From: a virus
Direction: 5' to 3' (one strand)
Virus record (IMG/VR): IMGVR_UViG_3300046830_000242
Coordinates: 1-24,657 of that record
DNA length: 24,657 bases
The translations under genes were made by a program, and so were the position numbers. A model generated the notes under the pieces. It made no database searches. It saw nothing but the letters and a program-made list of their open reading frames with translations, and was not told where the DNA came from. Shown here in pieces: positions 3,081-24,657 of the stretch (position 1 is its first letter; each line of letters begins with the position of its first letter).

Positions 3081-5866
3081 TGTCTGACTTCAAACTCAAT
3101 CCTGAAACAGGCGAATACGAATATGTCGGCACGGCTTATGAGGGTGTGCCGGAAGCAGCGGACGATCCCGATGCAGAAAGCGACGGCAGCCTGTTTGCTC
3201 CTAGCTATGGCTCGCCTGAGCTACGAGCAGCGGAAGGGTTAGAGGCTGAGCAGCAGGCAACTGCTGTTGCGGCCCGCGAGGAATACAACGATGAGCGTCC
3301 GTTGTGGGCGGAGAGCCTGGGTCAGTTTGGGAGCGATCTTGGCAAGAACCTGCTCAACCCGGCTGCGGCGCTGGTCACGGACTATGTCGACCTGGGTCAT
3401 GGCCTGGTGGATATTGCACAGCAAACCGGGAACCTGGTTCAGGGCAAGGGGTTTGACTGGAACAAAGTCTTTGATGACAGCGACAATCCGCTGACTGAAT
3501 ATCGGATCAACACGGTTGGTCGGTCTGAGACTGGCGCTGGTCAGTTCTTAAACACCACGTCGCGTGTTGTGGTTGCATTAGCAACGCTTCCAAAGACAGC
3601 GATCAAGTGGGGCATCGTTGCGCCACTCAAGGCACTGAGCAAGGTGCCTGTTGCAGGCAAGCTTGCTGGTGCCGGCGCAAAGCTGGCGACCAAAACTGAT
3701 GACGCGATTAAGGCTGGCCGCGAGGGAACCAAGGCAACCACGACAGCACTTAATGCCATCCAGAAGGGTGCGCCAAACAGCAAGGCAGCCGCTCTGGCTA
3801 ATGCTGATGACTGGCTCAAGTTGACTTACAAGGACGTTGTCAACGCTGGTGCAGAAGGTGGCCGCTTTGCCACGGTGATGCGCTCAACTGAGCGTGCGGC
3901 CAAGAGCCTGACGAAAGGCAAGGCGTCAGTGCGAACGGTGGGTGAAGCGTTGGCATGGGATGCGTTTGTTGCGTTCAACGCTGCGGGTGAAGGCAACCCG
4001 ATGTTGGATGAGACGTTTACCGACTTTCTCGATGAGGCTGGGGTGCCTCACGTTGCAGCGTTCCGCACGTCAATCAGAGACACAGGCTTGGAGCTAAAAG
4101 CCAAGCAGATGCTTGAGGGCACGATCCTTGGTGGCATCGTTAGCAGCGTCACGGATGTGGCGCGGATCTACAGGTTCAGTCGAGCTTTTCAGCGGGCTGA
4201 TGATGCGGAAAAGGCGTTAATTGTCAAAGCGTTGAATGAGGAAGGCGAACGCCTTGGTGGTTCGGTGGGAAGGCTTGGCGAGCAAGCTGAAGCTATTGCG
4301 TTGCTGCCTTCACGGAACCAGACGGCGTCGATGAAGAACTACCAGCTCTTAGATGAGGAGTTGGACAAGGTCAATGCAGTCCGCGATCAAATTGCATACA
4401 CCCAGGAGACGCAGGCGAATCTGCTGAAGCAGCAGCAGGTGAACGCTCAGATCGAAGATCAGATCAATGCGGTCAATCTTCGGAATGCAGACGATGCGAT
4501 GGGACAGCCTATGGCTGGTCCCGAAGGTGCTCCTATTCCGGCAAGCGTTCGGGTAGACGGGCAGGCACAACTGCCGCCTGGCGCCAAAGGTGGAGCGCTT
4601 GCGCCAGATCAGACAATCCAGCCCGCTGACATTCAGGTCATGCGGCCGCCAGAGCCGACGATCACACCGCAGACAATGCGGGCTGGCTTTCAGCAATACG
4701 TTGTCAATCGTTTTGCAGAGCAAGGCGGCGAGTTTATTGACCAATTACTTGACACCACGAAACGGTTGATGCCCCGCAACCGCGTGGATGCCATTGATCT
4801 GTTGGAGCAGTTCCCGCTTAGATACAACGGTCTCGGTGTGATGGAAGCATCCGAGAGCATTACCAAGAACTATCTGATTGAGCGTGGCCTAGCTGAAGGC
4901 TGGATGTCAGTCGATAGCGATCTTGCGTTGATGTATAACCGCAAGTTGGCGTTTGACTTTGACGCCAATCAGTACGCGGTCAAGCAGGCCACCGCGTTGG
5001 ATGAAGCGGCAGAGATTGAGCGATACAACGCCAGGTTGTTAGAGCAGGGTTCTGATCCGGCAACGCAGCCAGTGCAGAATGAACTGGCCAGGATGGAGGC
5101 CCGTGATGCTCTCGATGAAAGTGCAATCGGCAAGTCAACGCTTGGGGAAAGCGCCGATCCGGACATGGCGCTGGTTGAGGCGAAGCGTCAAGAACAGCTT
5201 GCTGCAACTCAGGAGGCTGGTGCAAAGAATGCGGAACAGCAGCAGGTAGACATTGATGCCATCGCCGCTTACGGCGACATCGGTTCAGACCGACAGGTTG
5301 TGGCAGAAATGCTCAATCTGGATCTTGACAATCTGCCGGAGTATGGCATTGAGAAGATTGGCAATCGGCAATATCAGGTTGTTGATGAGTTTGGTGAGTC
5401 GATTGACGGCAACACCTACTCAACGCTGAAGGGTGCTCGTAAGGGTGTTGATGTCGCGGGTAAAGCGCAGCGCAAGGAATACGTCGCGAAGGCCAGGGCA
5501 TTGGCCGACCGTGCAGCAGATCAGCCGGTGCAATCACGTATTGGCGTTGACTTCTACGACTCTCCTGCTGTGCGAGGTGAGTTGAGCTTGACCAAGCGTC
5601 AGGCAGAGATCTTGAACGAGCTAGGTGTTCCCATCAACGGCACCAAGCTTGACCTGAGTCAGGCCGATCTTGCTGGCATGGCTCAAAGCATCAAACAGTT
5701 GATGGAGTCAGTCACGCCCAATCAACGTCGGGTGCTGGGGAACATCCTCAAGCGCGTTGACGAGAAGGTAATTGACCTTGGGCCAAAAGCTCGCCTACAG
5801 GCAGAAGTTGACAAGACGGCTGCTCTGTCCCAGAAGTTCCTTAAAGACGGAGAGATTTGTTTCTGA
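3080..5866 (+). CDS. Large internal virion (ejection-type) protein, 928 aa
   Basis: ATG 3080 overlaps the previous TGA (TGATG) and has a strong Shine-Dalgarno GGAGG at 3067-3071, 8 nt upstream. The protein has an acidic N-terminus (1-60), a hydrophobic/amphipathic part near 160-200 (RVVVALATLPKTAIKWGIVA from residue 162), a long Ala-rich helical region, a Gln-rich coiled-coil-like stretch near 430-465, a Pro-rich linker near 475-530 and a Gln/Glu-rich helical C-terminus. No catalytic motif is recognised. Size, composition and position between the lysozyme-like virion protein and the 954-aa protein fit a T7 gp15/gp16-type ejected core protein. The exact gp15 or gp16 equivalence cannot be assigned by eye. 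Confidence 0.65.
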   Translation: MSDFKLNPETGEYEYVGTAYEGVPEAADDPDAESDGSLFAPSYGSPELRAAEGLEAEQQATAVAAREEYNDERPLWAESLGQFGSDLGKNLLNPAAALVTDYVDLGHGLVDIAQQTGNLVQGKGFDWNKVFDDSDNPLTEYRINTVGRSETGAGQFLNTTSRVVVALATLPKTAIKWGIVAPLKALSKVPVAGKLAGAGAKLATKTDDAIKAGREGTKATTTALNAIQKGAPNSKAAALANADDWLKLTYKDVVNAGAEGGRFATVMRSTERAAKSLTKGKASVRTVGEALAWDAFVAFNAAGEGNPMLDETFTDFLDEAGVPHVAAFRTSIRDTGLELKAKQMLEGTILGGIVSSVTDVARIYRFSRAFQRADDAEKALIVKALNEEGERLGGSVGRLGEQAEAIALLPSRNQTASMKNYQLLDEELDKVNAVRDQIAYTQETQANLLKQQQVNAQIEDQINAVNLRNADDAMGQPMAGPEGAPIPASVRVDGQAQLPPGAKGGALAPDQTIQPADIQVMRPPEPTITPQTMRAGFQQYVVNRFAEQGGEFIDQLLDTTKRLMPRNRVDAIDLLEQFPLRYNGLGVMEASESITKNYLIERGLAEGWMSVDSDLALMYNRKLAFDFDANQYAVKQATALDEAAEIERYNARLLEQGSDPATQPVQNELARMEARDALDESAIGKSTLGESADPDMALVEAKRQEQLAATQEAGAKNAEQQQVDIDAIAAYGDIGSDRQVVAEMLNLDLDNLPEYGIEKIGNRQYQVVDEFGESIDGNTYSTLKGARKGVDVAGKAQRKEYVAKARALADRAADQPVQSRIGVDFYDSPAVRGELSLTKRQAEILNELGVPINGTKLDLSQADLAGMAQSIKQLMESVTPNQRRVLGNILKRVDEKVIDLGPKARLQAEVDKTAALSQKFLKDGEICF

Positions 5867-8764: not shown

Positions 8765-10591
8765 ATGGCAGTACCCAACTACAAGTACAGCGGGGTCTGT
8801 TATACAGCGACGGCAGATCAGAAAACGTTTGCCCTTACGACATCTGAGGGCGAAAGCATCGGATACCTTAAGGAAGAACATATCAAGGTACGCACAAGTG
8901 CTGACAGTGGTAACACTTGGACTGGGCTCAGTATTAACACTGACTATGTATTTGCTGATCCAGCCACTTCTATTGTCCTAAACACTGGTGCATCAGCTGG
9001 AACGCTGGTTGACATCAAACGGCAAACGCCGATGGAGGACGATTACATCGACTTCCAGGCAGGCAGTTTGCTGACTGCTGGTGAGCTGAACACCTTTGAC
9101 ACCTGGCAGCTCTACATCGACCAAGAGCTGGATGATGGCAAGTCTGCAATTGACGGGACGGTTGAGGGCGAAGCCGTTAAGGAAGTCACTGGCACGGTGC
9201 CAATCCTTGTCGATAACACCAACAACCAAACGCCTGTCGTCTCAATTGATCAGACATACGTTCTCGACAACCCAAACGACTTGGTCAGTGATACCAAGGT
9301 CATGTCAGAGAAGGCGATTGACTCCGCCTTCTCGCAAATCATTGGGCCAGACCCTGGTTATCCGGCGCAAGGTTATGCAGGCAAAATTGGCAAGCTTCGG
9401 ATTGATCCCAGCGGAGCAATCCCTAACACCTTTTTCTGGAGTGGTTCTGCCTGGGTGCAGATCCAAACCAAGGGTGAGCAGGGCGATCAAGGCCCACCAG
9501 GCCCTGCCCCTGGCTTGCAGGACCCGGCCGCAACAGCGGTCAATGTCCCGCTGCAAGGTGATGGCTCTTTAGGAACAGCAACAGCTGATGTTCTGCAGGA
9601 CCCAGCAACCAAGGATCTCAAATTCCTGTTTGGTATCCCGGTTGGGCAGAAGGGAGATAAGGGTGAAGACTCGACAGTTCCAGGGCCACCGCCTGGGTTA
9701 CAGGATCCTGCGGCGCTTGCTTATGCGATCGGGGTTAAGCCAGACGGAACTGTTAATGAGCCAGAAGCGGAGGTTACTCAGAACAGCAATGGCGACCTGC
9801 AGTTCGCTTTTGGTATCCCAACTGGTCAGACCGGAGCAAAGGGAGAAAAGGGCGACCAGGGTGATACCGGTCAAGCGGTCAGTTACAAGGGACCGATTGA
9901 TGCAACAACAGCAGCAGAGCCAACTGATCCGGCCAACGGAGATTTTTACGTCAACACGGTTGATGGCACCAGCTCATGGACAGGGTTGAGCGATGTCATA
10001 GATGGCACGCGGATTATCTGGAACGGCACGACAAACAAGTGGGATGCCTATGACCCCACTTATGCAGCAAATCTTGGTTACACAGCTGCAGCAGACAAGG
10101 GCACAATTACCAACACCAATGGCAGTGATGCTGAGCTGCCGCTGGTAACGCTTTCCAATGCGGGCCTGATGAGCCCCGCAGACAAAGGAAAGCTGAACAA
10201 TGTTGAGGCAGGGGCGCAGGTCAACCCAGATCTGAGCACTTATCTGCAGTCCGGGGACAACGTCAGTGAGTTGACGAACGACGCGGGCTACATCACATCA
10301 GCAGATGTCCCGGCTTCTCCTGTTACCAGCGTCAATTCACTGACGGGAGATGTTGAGCTGGGGCTCCAGGAGGTATTGGATCAGGGCAACACCTCGACTA
10401 CTGATCTGTGGGTTGGTGATGCGGGTGAGACGGTCAAGTTGTTGAACACCGGAACGGTTGAAGCCAGCGGCAGTGTTGAGGCACCCAGCGTGGTGGCAAC
10501 TGGGGGCGGATTTAGTGGTACCGGATTACAGGTGAGCGGATCTGTTTCGGCTGGCTCTTATCGCATTGACCTTCTCCCTGCACTGCCATGA
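8765..10591 (+). CDS. Tail fibre protein, T7 gp17-like N-terminus with collagen-like repeats
   Basis: The 608-aa protein opens with a domain like the T7 tail-fibre N-terminus that docks on the tail (residues 1-130: NYKYSGVCYTATADQKTFAL, then IKRQTPMEDDYIDFQAGS and LNTFDTWQLYIDQELDD). Collagen-like Gly-X-Y runs follow at about 236-250, 294-302 and 354-370, within a 61-residue tandem duplication. The middle holds LMSPADKGKLNNVEAGAQVN (near 465) and a Ser/Gly/Val-rich beta-repeat C-terminus, both typical of fibre shafts. The C-terminus is short and the next gene starts within the stop (ATGA), so receptor binding may fall to the 1195-aa neighbour. Tail-fibre identity is secure; receptor unknown. 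Confidence 0.9.
   Translation: MAVPNYKYSGVCYTATADQKTFALTTSEGESIGYLKEEHIKVRTSADSGNTWTGLSINTDYVFADPATSIVLNTGASAGTLVDIKRQTPMEDDYIDFQAGSLLTAGELNTFDTWQLYIDQELDDGKSAIDGTVEGEAVKEVTGTVPILVDNTNNQTPVVSIDQTYVLDNPNDLVSDTKVMSEKAIDSAFSQIIGPDPGYPAQGYAGKIGKLRIDPSGAIPNTFFWSGSAWVQIQTKGEQGDQGPPGPAPGLQDPAATAVNVPLQGDGSLGTATADVLQDPATKDLKFLFGIPVGQKGDKGEDSTVPGPPPGLQDPAALAYAIGVKPDGTVNEPEAEVTQNSNGDLQFAFGIPTGQTGAKGEKGDQGDTGQAVSYKGPIDATTAAEPTDPANGDFYVNTVDGTSSWTGLSDVIDGTRIIWNGTTNKWDAYDPTYAANLGYTAAADKGTITNTNGSDAELPLVTLSNAGLMSPADKGKLNNVEAGAQVNPDLSTYLQSGDNVSELTNDAGYITSADVPASPVTSVNSLTGDVELGLQEVLDQGNTSTTDLWVGDAGETVKLLNTGTVEASGSVEAPSVVATGGGFSGTGLQVSGSVSAGSYRIDLLPALP
9497..9862 (+). repeat. Tandem 61-aa duplication in the tail fibre
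   Basis: Two copies of about 61 codons (residues 245-305 and 306-366) share the order PGP-x-PGLQDPAA, a variable acidic middle, DLKFLFGIP or DLQFAFGIP, then GQ-x-G-x-KG(E/D). The copies have diverged at the DNA level. The unit joins a collagen-like triplet run to a short beta element, so duplication lengthens the fibre shaft. Confidence 0.75.
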
Positions 10592-14200: not shown

Positions 14201-14503
14201 ATGACCCTGCTCGAATCTCATCAACCCAATTTTCCTGAGAAACCATCTGATGGCTTTCAGATCAAGAAAGATCTGCCAGATGGCAACGGCTATGTGATTT
14301 GGACGTACAACGCTCAATTCAATGAGTGGACAAACGAGGTCTTCAAGGCAGCCTTAACTGGCTATGTCTACACCGATCAGGTGCGGACAAGGTCAGAGGA
14401 GATCGCGACTCAACAGGATATCAACCTATACATCGCTGACACTATGACCAAGAGGGTCTCAGCGTTGGAAGAGAAGGTAGAAAGACTGCTTGAAAAACAG
14501 TGA
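14201..14503 (+). CDS. Small fibre-linked protein with C-terminal coiled coil (hypothetical)
   Basis: The 100-aa protein starts at ATG 14201 with a good Shine-Dalgarno (AAGAGG at 14187-14192, spacing 8). A compact N-terminal part contains NGYVIWTYNAQFNEWTNE (residues 29-46) and GYVYTDQVRTR, a Trp/Tyr-rich beta-like pattern. The last 30 residues form a likely coiled coil ending VSALEEKVERLLEKQ. Its position right after the fibre and adhesin genes suggests a tail-fibre accessory, chaperone or trimerisation protein. I do not recognise a named family. The stop overlaps the GTG of the next gene. Confidence 0.65.
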   Translation: MTLLESHQPNFPEKPSDGFQIKKDLPDGNGYVIWTYNAQFNEWTNEVFKAALTGYVYTDQVRTRSEEIATQQDINLYIADTMTKRVSALEEKVERLLEKQ

Positions 14504-14715
14504 AACGTGAAACGTTTTTGTTGTGGATGTTGGCTGGCCTGCTTACGTGGCAGGCCGCCATCTTTTCCTACGGGACGGTGATGTGTACCAGGGCGATGGA
14601 ACCTAAGGAGGTATGCCCCGAATTAGGTGATCGCTTTGATGGCTTTGTGAATACCAGCCTTGGTGCAGTGTTGGGTCTGCTGGCTGGCAGCGTTGCTACG
14701 CGGCAACGGCCATGA
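14500..14715 (+). CDS. Small two-helix membrane protein, holin candidate
   Basis: The 71-aa protein starts at GTG 14500, overlapping the upstream TGA (GTGA). It has a short basic N-terminus (MKRE), a hydrophobic helix at about 6-28 (FLLWMLAGLLTWQAAIFSYG), a 20-25 residue polar stretch with two cysteines, a second weaker helix at about 52-66 (TSLGAVLGLLAGSVA) and a basic end (RQRP). Size, two helices and the charged tail fit a small phage holin, but no lysin is adjacent; the lysozyme-like domain is in the virion protein at the other end of the block. Small spanins or membrane anchors are alternatives. Its last 20 nt are antisense to the end of the AbrB-like gene. Confidence 0.6.
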   Translation: MKRETFLLWMLAGLLTWQAAIFSYGTVMCTRAMEPKEVCPELGDRFDGFVNTSLGAVLGLLAGSVATRQRP

Positions 14716-15055
14716 CCTTAGTGAGGATGAGGCAGTCATCTTCCTGCTCAACCTTCACGTATTCACCAGGCTGAACGTTGATCATTTCTGCGTAGCAGCT
14801 GCTCAACGGGATCACCCCACGGCTGCTGGCTTTCACCTGATAGCTGGGCTGACGATGGCCAGTGCCAGGTGCGTGGGTTTCGCCAATGGTCAAACCTTGA
14901 GCAGCAGATAGAGCAGTAAAGAACTCAGTCTTTTTAAGGCTGGCCTTGCCATTGCGGATAGCTACATAACCAGCATTGGTGAGCATGGTTGGCATATCCA
15001 GCCCTGGATTAGCTGCGACGTAATCGACTAGCTCTTGCCCTGAAAGCTTTGACAT
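14696..15055 (-). CDS. AbrB-like transcriptional regulator of the cyanobacterial type (cyAbrB)
   Basis: From ATG 15055 the protein is 119 aa; a TTG at 15070 would add five residues but lies inside a palindrome, so I prefer the ATG. It follows the cyAbrB layout: LSGQELVDYV at the N-terminus, a middle with AGYVAIRNGKASL and FFTALSAAQGLTIG, an Arg-Gln-Pro-Ser-Tyr linker, and a C-terminal swapped-hairpin-like DNA-binding part with GVIPLSSCY, VQPGEYVKVEQ and CLILTKV. In cyanobacteria cyAbrB proteins regulate nitrogen and carbon metabolism genes. It is the last gene of the head/tail operon, 29 nt after the gp14-like gene, with possible promoter elements of its own. It could reprogram host metabolism or time phage transcription; both are inference. 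Family assignment is strong. Confidence 0.85.
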   Translation of the reverse strand: MSKLSGQELVDYVAANPGLDMPTMLTNAGYVAIRNGKASLKKTEFFTALSAAQGLTIGETHAPGTGHRQPSYQVKASSRGVIPLSSCYAEMINVQPGEYVKVEQEDDCLILTKVMAVAA

Positions 15056-15062
15056 TGACCAT

Positions 15063-15078
15063 GTTGACAACTGTCAAC
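15063..15078 (-). promoter_or_regulatory. Nested palindrome before the AbrB-like gene, candidate operator
   Basis: The 29-nt gap before ATG 15055 carries a perfect 7-bp dyad GTTGACA-GT-TGTCAAC, read on the minus strand. A second dyad ACTGT-TG-ACAGT overlaps its upstream half, and TATACT, a plausible -10 box, lies just upstream. No Shine-Dalgarno is visible, and the dyad ends 7 nt before the ATG. It could be an operator (for example AbrB autoregulation) or an RNA hairpin that gates translation. Confidence 0.5.
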
Positions 15079-15084
15079 AGTATA

Positions 15085-16338
15085 TCAACGGAAGCCTAGT
15101 GATCCATCGGCCTTTGTATAGCTCATGCTCATTGCGCCTTGTGCAGCGCTGACACCTGCACCTAGCAGGATTGATCCCCAACCAGGCTTGGCTGCTTTGG
15201 TATACATCATCTTCTCTGGCTTCAGTCCAGCGATTGGCTCCAGCGGATCAAAGATGATTGCCTCGCGGTAAGGAGTTGATGCACCCTTGATCGTGTTGAT
15301 GGTGCTGCTGACCAATGACGTGAACTCTCGCTCGCCTTGGCGTCTGGCTAAGTCAAAGCCAGGCTTGGTGAGTTGGTCGAAGTTGCGCATCAATGAATTG
15401 GTCTCAAAGGCATACGCCTTGTTTGCGCTCTGAGCTTGGCTCGCAAGGTTGGCCAACGTCAGCTGGTTGGAGTTCTTGCTGTAGTTCATCGATCGCATCT
15501 CCCCTTCAATCTCGGTGGCGATCTGCGCCATCTGCGAGGCTGTCTCGCCAGACAGGGATGCGTTGTAGTTGTTGAGTTGGTTGCGTCGTCTGCGTTGTTC
15601 TGTCTTCAGCAGGCCATAGCTGCGGCCAAAGGCTTTCATGTTGTCCAGCGCTATAGCGCGGGAGCTATTGCTGCCGCCCTGTCTGGCTGTAGCCCCAGCT
15701 CTGGTATCAGCGTCTTGCGCCAACGCTGTGACATATTCCGCGTCACGCTGCAGGGTGTCGAGCTGCTCGCCAATAACGATCTGCTCTTGGATTTGTTGGC
15801 CCTCAGCTTGTTTCTTGGCAAGCAACGCATCGCTCTGTTGGCCGCGTTGTTTGATTGAGTTGAGATAGCCGGCGATGTCATCCCTTGTCTTCAGCAGCGA
15901 TTGCGCCGCTTGAAAGTTCAGACCGGACAAGGTGTCATCACGCTTCATCTCTGATGAAGTCAGATCGTCTGCCAGCTGTGTTGTGACCTGAACAGCACGC
16001 AGCTGCTCGGCTTCAATGTATTGATCCCGCAGTGCGCCAATGTTCAGATCAAGGTTGGTCAGTGCAGTGTCGATGACTCGTGATTGCTGTGCCTCATAGT
16101 CTTCCTTGCGCACACGGTCGATGTATCGCTGAGCCTCAACATCAGCCAGGTTCCATGCGTGCTGTCGCCAGCCTTCAGCTCTATTAATCTCCCACTCTTT
16201 AGTGTCCCGCTCTAATTGAGCCTGTGCAATTTTCTCTTGCTCTGCATTCTGAGCATCAGCAGCTGAGCGTTGCTGACTGCCTTGCATGATTCCTGAAAGG
16301 CCGCCAATAGCAGCGGCCGCGATAGCGCCCCAGGCCAT
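15085..16338 (-). CDS. Internal virion protein, gp14-like (ejection protein)
   Basis: The 417-aa protein starts with a hydrophobic Ala/Gly-rich segment (AWGAIAAAAIGGLSGIMQGS, residues 2-21) followed by a long Gln/Glu/Arg-rich region likely to form coiled coils (about 25-320), and it ends with another small hydrophobic Gly/Ala stretch (SILLGAGVSAAQGAM). That layout, and its position directly after tail tubular protein B (5-nt gap), matches the gene 14 internal core protein of T7-like phages, which inserts in the outer envelope during ejection. T7 gp14 is shorter (about 196 aa); cyanophage versions tend to be longer. Assigned by layout and synteny rather than a signature motif. Confidence 0.65.
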   Translation of the reverse strand: MAWGAIAAAAIGGLSGIMQGSQQRSAADAQNAEQEKIAQAQLERDTKEWEINRAEGWRQHAWNLADVEAQRYIDRVRKEDYEAQQSRVIDTALTNLDLNIGALRDQYIEAEQLRAVQVTTQLADDLTSSEMKRDDTLSGLNFQAAQSLLKTRDDIAGYLNSIKQRGQQSDALLAKKQAEGQQIQEQIVIGEQLDTLQRDAEYVTALAQDADTRAGATARQGGSNSSRAIALDNMKAFGRSYGLLKTEQRRRRNQLNNYNASLSGETASQMAQIATEIEGEMRSMNYSKNSNQLTLANLASQAQSANKAYAFETNSLMRNFDQLTKPGFDLARRQGEREFTSLVSSTINTIKGASTPYREAIIFDPLEPIAGLKPEKMMYTKAAKPGWGSILLGAGVSAAQGAMSMSYTKADGSLGFR

Positions 16339-16343
16339 AACTC

Positions 16344-16997
16344 TTACGCAGCTTTCTCTCTGTCACTGTAAACGCCCTTCCATGACGCGCTAGTGACAGT
16401 GACGGGTAGCCAGGAATCTGACTCGATGATCACTGAACACTTGTCGTTCTGACTGCATACGGGAGCAGTGATGTTTCCGCTCTCCAATGACATGTCGCTT
16501 TTGTCGAGAGTGCTATTCATTACATCCAAAATGCGTGCTCGGAAGTTCACAACTGTGTCATTGCTCCGGTTCTCTCGCTTTACCCGCAGCGTGTAGGCCC
16601 CGGTATCAACGTGGTTCACCGTCCATCGCAGAATCTGAGTACGGCCAGCAAGCTGACCAATCCTCCTGTTACCTGACTCATTGGTGTCAGGCACATACCC
16701 AGTGTTGAACTCATACTCAAACTTGTACGGCTCACCAAACGCCACCTGATAGCTCGTCCAATCCCCAGGTGGATCACACACCAATGATGTGGTGGTTGTC
16801 TCCCCTAGCTTCAGACCTTGGTAGTCAGCATTGGTGAAGCGCACCACCGCCACTGTCTTCTCCGCCGGTGTGTACGGAATGGTGAATGTCGTCTTATTGG
16901 TGGTCGCGTCATACGCCGCAGTCACCGTTGCTGATGGTGCAATGAACCCTGACGTTGGATACTGCAGCAACCTGTCCAGATGGATCTGTGGTGTTGT
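16344..16997 (-). CDS. C-terminal part of tail tubular protein B, beyond an in-frame UAG
   Basis: This frame directly continues the upstream ORF after TAG 16998-17000: 9 codons (TTPQIHLDR), then 208 more to a TAA at 16344. There is no ATG or GTG at the beginning; a TTG at 16970 is the first possible start and has no ribosome-binding site. The sequence matches the C-terminal part expected for gp12-type nozzle proteins: an LDR motif, a beta-rich domain with EPYKFEYEFNTGYVPDT, RRIGQLAGRTQILRW, and a final IIESDSWLPVTVTSASWKG segment. The 217 sense codons have stayed open and well conserved in character, so this is not decayed sequence. It is likely made by readthrough, unless the stop is an error or recent mutation. 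Confidence 0.8.
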   Translation of the reverse strand, partial: TTPQIHLDRLLQYPTSGFIAPSATVTAAYDATTNKTTFTIPYTPAEKTVAVVRFTNADYQGLKLGETTTTSLVCDPPGDWTSYQVAFGEPYKFEYEFNTGYVPDTNESGNRRIGQLAGRTQILRWTVNHVDTGAYTLRVKRENRSNDTVVNFRARILDVMNSTLDKSDMSLESGNITAPVCSQNDKCSVIIESDSWLPVTVTSASWKGVYSDREKAA

Positions 16998-17000
16998 CTA
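16998..17000 (-). other. In-frame UAG codon inside the tail tubular protein B gene
   Basis: The codons around it read GAG ATC GAG GTA TAG ACA ACA CCA CAG. Both flanking ORFs are in one frame: 18926 to 16344 is 861 codons exactly. TAG also ends the genes at 8730, 14175 and 14696, so general UAG reassignment is unlikely. Confidence 0.9.
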
Positions 17001-18926
17001 TACCTCGATCTCATCGTTCAGCTGCAGGCAGAAGTACGTGCCCGTACTGTCCGTCACCAGCATGTAGAGAGCGTTGTCCATGAACTTCACCCACTGCACA
17101 TCTTGGTTGAATTCCCAATGACTCCAGCTGCGCTGGATCTTCTGTTGCCCAACCTCACCTGTCTGCCACAGGTACTTGTAGACAAAGACATCTTTCCTGT
17201 TGGTCGGTGACACGATCACCGCGGCATCGATGTTCTGACCTACATCCCAGTGCGTGACTGAACCAGTGATGTATTTCGGCACATAGTTCGTGACGTCCAG
17301 GCTGCTGCCTAGGTTCAGACCCAGCTTGGTGTTGCGCTGGTTGTAGAAGTTGAACTCACGGAAATGCGTATAGCCAAAGTATTCCGTGGCAAATAGAACC
17401 TGCGCACCAGACAGTTTGGGCCTGACGTTCGGGTTCATCTCCAGATTGCTAAGCCGGAAGATCTCACCCGTTAGCGGAGTCAATACATCTGCATCAGCTG
17501 CTCGCACCTGGAACTGTGAGGTGGACGAGAATGCAAGGATGCTGTCCTCAACAGGGATCATCCATTCAATTGGTGAGCTGCGTTCACTGGTGCCACGCAA
17601 TCCAAATGGATCCGTTGCCTGCACAGCAAGCGACGTGTCATTGAAGAAATTAAAGATGTCATCTGTCTCGCTGAACTGCACTGTCTCCTCAGCTGCCACC
17701 ACATAGCGGCTGCGAAACAACGCATGATCCCTGATCTTTTTGCCAACAAACTCAGGGTCAGGTGATGAGATGTCATCACCAGCTGTGCGCTCTGCCCACT
17801 TCGGAAACGTGTACTTGTATTCCTTGCCATCAACGGTCTGCGTCTCCTCGGCTCCATCCGCTGGCCCAACAAAGAACACGTCTTCAGCTGCGCGATAGAT
17901 GACCAGTGGCATGGTGTTGGAATCCAGCGCATAGGTAATCCCTGGCTTAACTGTCTCCTGCCAGGCACCATCGCCAAAGTCACCTGAGCCGAACGTGCTG
18001 AACTTCAACCAGCGGTTATCGACGGTTGTTGATGGGTCGCTTTCCACTTCAACGACATACCCGTCAGGCGCAATGACTGGCAGGTTCGCCAGGCTCTGTA
18101 CCTTTGTCGTAAACGCATTGGCCAGTTCGCTGCTGCGGCCGTCGTCGATCGTTATCTCAAAGTCGCTGTTGTCATCCTTGGTGACATAGATGACGTACTG
18201 CTCAACCCGTGCGGTGTAACCGCCCTGCCCATTGATCTGGCCCTGCAGTTCGGACGCAACGATTGATGTGCTGATGACGTTGTCGTCTGCCCCAGCGTCA
18301 GGCGTGGTGAAGCTCGCAACCTCGCTGCCGTTGATCTTCACCGTATAGGTGACGTTGTATGCAACAGCTCTAATGAACACCAGGCCTTTGCCTGTTTGCT
18401 GAGCAACGGTCGTGGGATTGTATGCAGTTTCCTTCTCACGGTTGAGCAGCAGGCCAACAGGACCAGTGCTAATCAGCGCGTACTTTTTGTAGTAATGCTC
18501 TGGATCGTTATAGATGTAGGAGTCGCTGTTGCCAGTGATGATTCCGTTGACAGCACTCAACCCAGTGCCATGGGTTTTGATTGTGGCTGGTGTCCCGTTA
18601 CGCCGCAGGTCGATGAACGTTTGATCAGTACCAGGGCGGCACAGGATTGAATACTGCTCGCCCTGTTTGATGTCCATCATCTCCAGATAGAAATCCGTGA
18701 GGATGTCATCGCTGATCTTGGACTGAAGCCGCATCGCGTTCCGCTTGGTCAGTCCCTCCACAGGGCTGGACCAACCGTTGATCTGCCGCGTGCCTTGCCC
18801 CGGTGTACGGAGATGCGGCGGCTGTTGCGAGACACCTTGGATCAACGTATCCAGATCACGACGGATCGGTGCGCTGGCTTTGTCAGGTGTTTTGCCCTTA
18901 CGGAACTTCGACTTGGTGCGGGCCAT
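16998..18926 (-). CDS. Tail tubular protein B (gp12-like nozzle), ends at in-frame amber
   Basis: ATG 18926 overlaps the TAA of tail tubular protein A (TAATG). The N-terminus carries the hallmark of the family, LIQGVSQQPPHLRTPGQGTR (residues 29-48) and SSPVEGLTKRNAM. Central motifs include IRDHALFRSRYVVAAEETVQ and FGLRGTSERSSPIEWMIPVE, also typical of gp12. The ORF stops at TAG 16998-17000 after 642 codons, short for the family (T7 gp12 about 794 aa). Reading through the TAG gives 860 residues including the conserved C-terminus. The protein forms the tail nozzle below tail tubular protein A and contacts the fibres. Identity is secure; the stop is the oddity. Confidence 0.92.
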   Translation of the reverse strand: MARTKSKFRKGKTPDKASAPIRRDLDTLIQGVSQQPPHLRTPGQGTRQINGWSSPVEGLTKRNAMRLQSKISDDILTDFYLEMMDIKQGEQYSILCRPGTDQTFIDLRRNGTPATIKTHGTGLSAVNGIITGNSDSYIYNDPEHYYKKYALISTGPVGLLLNREKETAYNPTTVAQQTGKGLVFIRAVAYNVTYTVKINGSEVASFTTPDAGADDNVISTSIVASELQGQINGQGGYTARVEQYVIYVTKDDNSDFEITIDDGRSSELANAFTTKVQSLANLPVIAPDGYVVEVESDPSTTVDNRWLKFSTFGSGDFGDGAWQETVKPGITYALDSNTMPLVIYRAAEDVFFVGPADGAEETQTVDGKEYKYTFPKWAERTAGDDISSPDPEFVGKKIRDHALFRSRYVVAAEETVQFSETDDIFNFFNDTSLAVQATDPFGLRGTSERSSPIEWMIPVEDSILAFSSTSQFQVRAADADVLTPLTGEIFRLSNLEMNPNVRPKLSGAQVLFATEYFGYTHFREFNFYNQRNTKLGLNLGSSLDVTNYVPKYITGSVTHWDVGQNIDAAVIVSPTNRKDVFVYKYLWQTGEVGQQKIQRSWSHWEFNQDVQWVKFMDNALYMLVTDSTGTYFCLQLNDEIEV

Positions 18927-24170: not shown

Positions 24171-24351
24171 TGGTCAGGCCTCGCAAAAAGCGGATGACGG
24201 ATCTCTGACCCGAAGCGTACCTAACTTGATCAATAGAGTCAGTTAGTTCAGGAGTGCGCTCCGGGAACAAAGTATCCAGTGCATCCAGCATCTCACTTGT
24301 AAGACGCTGGCCGACAATCTTCTTTAGGACTTCAGGGTTGGTGGTGTCCAA
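24163..24351 (-). CDS. Small conserved-looking phage protein between exonuclease and virion genes
   Basis: The 62-aa protein contains LDTLFPERTPELTDSIDQVR and YASGQRSVIRFLRGL. The SGQRSVIRFL pattern is one I associate with small proteins found near the portal gene in T7-like and other phages, function unknown. The only upstream start in frame is TTG 24351, just after an in-frame stop, and no Shine-Dalgarno is visible; an internal ATG would remove 20 residues. It overlaps the exonuclease end by 28 nt and the 283-aa gene start by 8 nt, which supports translation in this compact cluster. Confidence 0.6.
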   Translation of the reverse strand: MDTTNPEVLKKIVGQRLTSEMLDALDTLFPERTPELTDSIDQVRYASGQRSVIRFLRGLTNG

Positions 24352-24657
24352 AGATCAACAGTGCGCGTCTCTGCATTGTACTCGCCATGACGAAGTATTC
24401 GCACTAGCCGCGCTTGTTGCAGTGCAACAGTCTCTGGTTCCCGAAGGTCTTTCTTCTTACTGAGCGCTGTTGCAAACTGAGCCACAATTTCTTGCCAACA
24501 TTCCACAGGTTCCGCCGTGTTGAAGTTGTTGACAATGCGCTTTGCTCCGACCGCGCCGATGCCCGAGCAGCCGGGAATGTTGTCCGTTGAATCACCAATC
24601 AATACCTGTGAATAGAAATGCCTGTCGCAATAGTCCTGGTCAACAATCCACTCGACT
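24324..24657 (-). CDS. 5'-3' exonuclease (T7 gp6-like), C-terminal part, cut by window edge
   Basis: The frame is open from the right edge to TAA 24324, giving the last 110 residues. DRHFYSQVLIGDSTDNIPG followed by CSGIGAVGAKRIV is the classic Asp-rich metal site plus helix-3-turn-helix DNA-binding motif of the FEN/Pol I-type 5' nuclease family. In T7, gp6 degrades host DNA, removes RNA primers and supplies nucleotides. It marks the junction of the replication and structural regions. The N-terminal catalytic half lies outside the window. A TTG at 24602 is not a start, since coding continues upstream without a stop. Confidence 0.9.
   Translation of the reverse strand, partial: VEWIVDQDYCDRHFYSQVLIGDSTDNIPGCSGIGAVGAKRIVNNFNTAEPVECWQEIVAQFATALSKKKDLREPETVALQQARLVRILRHGEYNAETRTVDLWTPPTLKS

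Follow-up and report, generated by a model that had tools for sequence, protein, structure and literature searches.

What would a phage do with a gene for a cyanobacterial AbrB (cyAbrB) regulator at the end of its virion genes? Host cyAbrBs control carbon and nitrogen as well as day/night genes (PMC9241938). An earlier note on the viral contig studied here (IMG/VR record IMGVR_UViG_3300046830_000242; all 24,657 nucleotides, called the window) had read such a gene as a means either of taking over host metabolism or of timing the phage's own late transcription. We examined the gene, its protein, its upstream region, and its relatives in phages and hosts with these two ideas and several others in mind.

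The abrB-like gene, its locus, and its descent

The abrB-like open reading frame (ORF) lies on the minus strand at positions 14696 to 15055, starts with ATG, codes for 119 amino acids, and has no internal stop codon. Its assignment to the cyAbrB family is confirmed by a profile search, in which the protein matched PF14250 (“AbrB-like”) with 30.8 bits (E value of 3.1e-7) against a gathering cut-off of 25. No other gene of the 24.7-kb contig matched this profile, and a PHROGs search of the 119-aa protein gave no match. Structural genes for portal, capsid, tail tubular A, nozzle, and an internal protein precede abrB on the minus strand, and abrB comes last in this leftward-running structural unit; the phage is a Krakvirus-like podovirus (Autographiviridae). 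The gene directly upstream (15085 to 16338, minus strand), a homologue of the “T10G3.5” gene of AP013549, belongs to the phage structural block, and its stop codon abuts a conserved block in front of abrB. At its 3′ end abrB overlaps by 20 bp a convergent plus-strand ORF (14500 to 14715) of 71 aa, which has two hydrophobic stretches, appears holin-like by eye, and is homologous to positions 24188 to 24412 of AP013549. The earlier note is thus right that abrB closes the late operon, but only as to position: transcription of abrB may be independent of the structural unit, since a conserved block with a −10-like hexamer lies before the gene. The nozzle (tail tubular B) gene of the window consists of two ORFs in different frames (16344 to 16970 and 16998 to 18926, minus strand), unlike the undivided gene of AP013549, L004, and L003; this is either a contig frameshift or a genuinely split gene.

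The nearest named relative is AP013549.1, the uncultured phage MedDCM-OCT-S39-C11 (Krakvirus S39C11, Autographiviridae). Its protein BAQ94494.1 is 92% identical to the window protein, is encoded at the same locus, and is already annotated as “AbrB family transcriptional regulator.” In this genome two convergent arms meet, with overlap, at abrB: one arm closes with the genes for portal, capsid, tail tubular A, and nozzle, an internal gene, and abrB, whereas the other begins at terL, continues with large internal and fibre genes, and finishes with a 71- to 75-aa ORF. About a dozen further IMG/VR contigs carry abrB at the same locus (66 to 98% identity), and since the gene recurs at this position in AP013549 as well as in these contigs, the ORF is more than a chance reading frame. 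The locus is also kept in a more distant relative, L338, with AbrB 46%, capsid 77%, and nozzle 51% identical. Matches to PF14250 above the cut-off were likewise found in L010, L019, L212, and L338 (27.9 to 36.8 bits). In collections that were sampled, and in which many contigs are fragments, a close relative of the abrB gene occurred in 1 of 50,697 phage records, and cyAbrB-like genes occurred on many IMG/VR contigs.

The host is indirectly indicated to be cyanobacterial, by the PF14250 match together with a terL and an RNA polymerase that are nearest to those of the P-SCSP1 cyanopodoviruses. These are the nearest cultured phages by score (about 40% identity for terL and about 25% for RNA polymerase). 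A search for attP around the AP013549 integrase found nothing tRNA-like, and an att search of 400 Cyanobiaceae genomes gave no meaningful match; a host for group G9 was not assigned by Mizuno et al. 2013 (PMC3861242).

PF14250 is present in all 61 sampled Cyanobiaceae genomes, with up to 13 copies each. Paralogues are strongly expanded (7 to 13 per genome) in the picocyanobacteria G194, G191, and G180. Among 300 Cyanobiaceae genomes, the best host matches to the window protein reach 28 to 35% identity. A tree of 66 sequences, built on few columns and rooted only at the midpoint, has a 100/99 branch that parts the Krakvirus proteins and the L212 protein from all host and other viral copies. Recent capture from a host is ruled out by the identity of at most 35% and by this separate side of the tree. 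From these comparisons we conclude that abrB is an old phage lineage that krakviruses have passed down vertically at a single locus.

A divergent protein in two halves

Two parts can be recognized in the protein. Residues 4 to 54 (14894 to 15046, minus strand) correspond to the N-terminal module of cyAbrB (N-module) and are modeled as helix-helix-hairpin-helix, while residues 67 to 119 (14699 to 14857, minus strand) are predicted to form an acidic SpoVT-AbrB swapped-hairpin domain with a “GVIP” motif. The N-terminal half falls outside PF14250, yet it matches host cyAbrB. A hidden Markov model (HMM) of the N-terminal 56 residues of host cyAbrB scored the window protein at 20.0 bits (E value of 0.0026 for 100,000 proteins), L010 at 26.7 bits, and L212 at 94.7 bits, with unrelated ORFs and shuffled controls at 4.6 bits or less. 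The structural model of this module found winged-helix-like matches only, weak and tied (Z of about 2).

For the C-terminal half, the corresponding host HMM gave 14.6 bits on the window protein (E value of 0.12). A structure model made from 4 sequences had no usable fold match, and one made from 28 sequences did. Residues 67 to 119 of this model aligned in VIA-align with the N-domain of Bacillus AbrB (1z0r; Z of 6.2, rmsd of 1.9 over 52 residues), and the top rows were all SpoVT-AbrB-type folds (AbrB, Abh, MazE, SpoVT, VapB, and Sso7c4); Foldseek alone gave a best E value of 0.07 for the same C-terminal model.

The window protein resembles the cyanobacterial cyAbrBs (Sll0359/cyAbrB1 and Sll0822/cyAbrB2) in size, in the order of its halves, and in the AbrB fold predicted for its C-terminal half, and it shares the N-module motif L-G-x-x-L ... 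GYV ... G ... F-x-x-AL-x-A-G. It differs in its acidic C-terminal half with the GVIP motif, in having a palindromic site of its own, and in the absence of the sequence that typifies the DNA-binding half in hosts (NGN..IG.AYT, PGDEFEIKLGRK). In the alignment, the cyAbrB patterns NGN..IG.AYT and KLGRK correspond to SRGVIPLSSCY and EQEDD. Because the host-type sequence is absent from this half, we class the protein as a phage-borne, divergent form within the cyAbrB family and not as a host-type cyAbrB. The GVIP motif and the acidic strand are nearer to Bacillus AbrB, Abh, and SpoVT and to MazE (PF04014) than to cyAbrB, and these proteins are also like the window protein in the predicted fold of residues 67 to 119. 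However, their partner domain is unlike that of the window protein, which scores 12.1 bits with PF04014 (SpoVT-AbrB/MazE), below the cut-off of 24.7. The net charge of the AbrB half is −1 (host median, +3), and the pI of the complete protein is 6.07 (host median, 8.36; host range, 5.1 to 10.4). An acidic AbrB half is unusual for a DNA binder and counts against reading the protein as a transcription factor.

Contig L212 (4667 to 5158) encodes a protein that joins a host-like cyAbrB N-module to a window-like GVIP AbrB half; its gene lies within a group of head genes but is read from the other strand. By its composition this protein is an intermediate form between host cyAbrB and the window type.

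An operator-like palindrome before abrB

Only about 30 bases separate abrB from the stop codon of the gene before it. They hold the −10-like hexamer TATACT (15079 to 15084, minus strand), a proposed host-sigma promoter of abrB, and, immediately behind it, the perfect inverted repeat TGTTGAC-AGTT-GTCAACA (15062 to 15079, minus strand), which lies 6 nt before the start codon. This is the only such perfect repeat in the window, where 0.05 would be expected. The palindrome is present before abrB at every abrB locus examined, and TATACT, which stands 20 to 30 nt before the start codon, is kept at all abrB loci with the palindrome, L338 included. In its conserved form the palindrome can be written as TTGAC-AGTN-GTCAA. 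A scan for the sigma-70 consensus found nothing at abrB, and TATACT has no −35 partner there. Over 12 loci, the 23-bp upstream block has a mean pairwise identity of 96%; in the coding DNA that flanks it upstream the value is 61% (120 columns), and no other window of 23 columns exceeds 78%. In L338 the corresponding sequence before abrB is TATACTTGACAGTAGTCAACC; in L010 and L011 the loop is altered and the palindrome lengthened (ATACTGTTGA-CATCTT-TCAACAGTAT), and in AP013549 the final base is changed (GTCAACC). Overall, the arms are near-invariant and the loop varies (AGTT, AGTA, ATCT), with no compensatory changes seen. The palindrome is probably the operator of abrB itself. L338 has a second, weaker copy (10478 to 10495), flanked by the capsid gene and a terminator-like hairpin.

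Related sites lie elsewhere in these phages. L022/L018 represents a sister phage with a 65% identical RNA polymerase. Two perfect copies of CTGTTGA-N6-TCAACAG are found in the 13.7 kb of L022, against an estimated chance expectation of about 5e-5, and in L022/L018 the copies directly precede the start codons of a lysozyme gene (PF00959) and of a gene for an NrdR-like zinc-ribbon protein (PF22811). The latter protein, of 69 aa, is encoded at 10026 to 10257 of L022, right behind the perfect palindrome, and no counterpart of its gene was seen in AP013549. AP013549 and L232 have only a half-site between terL and the lysozyme gene. Exact ACTGTTGACAG has three copies in the 42-kb AP013549, all outside annotated genes. 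The early sigma-70-like promoter of AP013549 and L028 (TTGACA-N17-TATGTT) carries the related TGTTGACAGTNNNCAA over its −35 box; because TTGACA is itself the −35 consensus, this site may be coincidental. Upstream of the early promoter, L015 (about 3828 to 3846) and L028 (about 428 to 446) share a conserved block, GCATCTATATGTATTGGGG, possibly a second promoter for the host or the phage polymerase. The full palindrome was not found near lysozyme or terL in L234 and L236 to L238, contigs with more distant terL genes that exclude the abrB locus. In hosts, the palindrome occurred in 8 of 201 Cyanobiaceae genomes, against a rough chance expectation of about 2, which rules it out as a standing host regulon.

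Since the site stands at every abrB locus examined, we infer that its reader is AbrB rather than, for example, a MarR-like protein. With a confidence only a little above even, we lean toward the abrB product being a cyAbrB-family transcription factor that is specific to the phage and controls its own gene. An AbrB dimer would bind the palindrome. At abrB the bound dimer would sit where the host RNA polymerase, directed by TATACT, begins transcription, so that AbrB would limit its own synthesis by negative autoregulation. For the lysozyme gene, the NrdR-like gene, and the early promoter with its weaker site over the −35 box, the effect would be to time or damp transcription by the host polymerase during infection. 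The absence of a −35 box at abrB, the mere half-site at the lysozyme gene of AP013549 and L232, and the presence of a MarR-like gene speak against this reading. With respect to the two initial ideas, self-timing thus gains support from a conserved palindrome that recurs and lies at a putative promoter, and takeover lacks such support.

The palindrome might instead act as an RNA hairpin, for translation control or as an RNase III site, or be the operator of another regulator such as a MarR-like protein, with AbrB as a bystander. Its position just upstream of the start codon would allow a 7-bp hairpin, and a MarR-like gene, which in L028 has a half-site upstream, is a conserved neighbour of the integrase and RNA polymerase genes. 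We regard both variants as unlikely, because constant arms with variable loops and no compensatory changes suit DNA recognition better, and because the site stands before every abrB examined but not before every MarR gene.

cyAbrB modules in other phages and a possible link to host gene silencing

Host-like cyAbrB genes were found at 72 IMG/VR loci, with a terminase match in 15 of the 32 records tested; viral contigs that carry such a gene without a terminase may include host DNA. In L178, L182, L199, and L203 the cyAbrB gene follows terL on its strand at a distance of no more than 100 bases, and in L169 too a host-like cyAbrB comes straight after the large terminase gene. The placement of a cyAbrB gene after virion genes, which the earlier note had called unexpected, is therefore not peculiar to the window, as several uncultured phages have one right behind the terminase gene. 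Host-like genes such as those of L182, L199, L203, and L178 are phage-borne beside late genes, as in the window; unlike the window gene, they are next to terL, encode a host-like DNA-binding half (48 to 76% identity to a host copy), and do not share the palindrome. One viral contig, L221, has two adjacent cyAbrB paralogues (3468 to 3827 and 4071 to 4427).

The N-module also occurs without an AbrB half. It stands alone, with 52 aa, in P-TIM68 (L144, 2501 to 2659), and is fused to other sequence in B23 gp246 (L145, 2465 to 2893). A fusion to an ArdA-like antirestriction domain is found in S-B28, WH11-B, 7B11-B, S-CBP1, DSL-LC07, and more than 100 IMG/VR contigs. Loci of N-modules without the AbrB half include L017 (1647 to 2207), L248 (1127 to 1693), L249 (1471 to 2049), L250 (1489 to 2049), and L251 to L326. 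The ArdA-like domain of the fusions matches PF07275 weakly and belongs with phrog_36653. In hhalign, the N-module of the fusions matched the host cyAbrB module with a probability of 98.2 (E value of 6e-14; control pairings, 0.7 and 2.7). The S-B28 match looked like noise in the phage search (E value of 0.7), and N-module profiles showed it to be a true match. In the Synechococcus podoviruses S-CBP1 (S-CBP1_0005), S-B28, and DSL-LC07, the N-module is homologous to that of the window, and the C-terminal half is ArdA-like, not AbrB. We found no description of cyAbrB or its modules in cyanophages in the open-access literature.

It is tempting, though decidedly tentative, to regard the cyAbrB N-module as a recurring building block with which cyanophages engage or counter host cyAbrB. 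The forms it takes might then be, with equal reserve, a decoy in P-TIM68, a fusion with an ArdA-like DNA mimic in Synechococcus podoviruses, and a re-tuned AbrB domain with its operator in the window. Through its N-module, the window protein itself might mix with or displace the host cyAbrB nucleoid protein and so keep phage or host genes open. Synechocystis cyAbrB2 binds AT-rich DNA broadly and represses it, and a role in defence against foreign DNA has been suggested (PMC11368403). Since such DNA is coated and repressed by cyAbrB2, a nucleoid protein, this is a serious rival of, or complement to, autoregulation by AbrB, and the N-modules that cyanophages carry alone or fused point the same way. 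It nevertheless leaves the conserved palindrome unexplained, and the divergence of the window N-module makes mixing with host dimers uncertain; as the main function of the protein we think it unlikely.

Takeover, in which the phage protein would regulate host nitrogen and carbon promoters in place of host cyAbrB, draws on family membership (PF14250). It is still less probable, as even the closest host copies are so distant in identity, the DNA-binding half has lost its basic, cyAbrB-type residues, and the phage palindrome is rare in host genomes. That abrB is the antitoxin of a toxin-antitoxin pair, as a C-terminal half MazE-like in predicted fold and weakly in sequence might hint, is very improbable and is ruled out by gene order, there being no co-directional partner between the structural-block gene upstream and the convergent small membrane ORF downstream.

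Autoregulation by AbrB provides a specific and testable candidate operator for a phage-encoded relative of cyAbrB. Host cyAbrBs are reported to bind DNA broadly, with a preference for AT-rich DNA or with weak specificity. If the operator is real, the phage would offer a simple, sequence-specific model of the cyAbrB family and a handle on the timing of host-polymerase transcription in uncultured marine T7-like phages. Beyond this locus, cyAbrB modules that are shared, truncated, and fused across cyanophages suggest a previously unreported contest with cyAbrB-based gene silencing, and the building-block reading, if true, would make these proteins a cyanobacterial counterpart of phage anti-H-NS factors.
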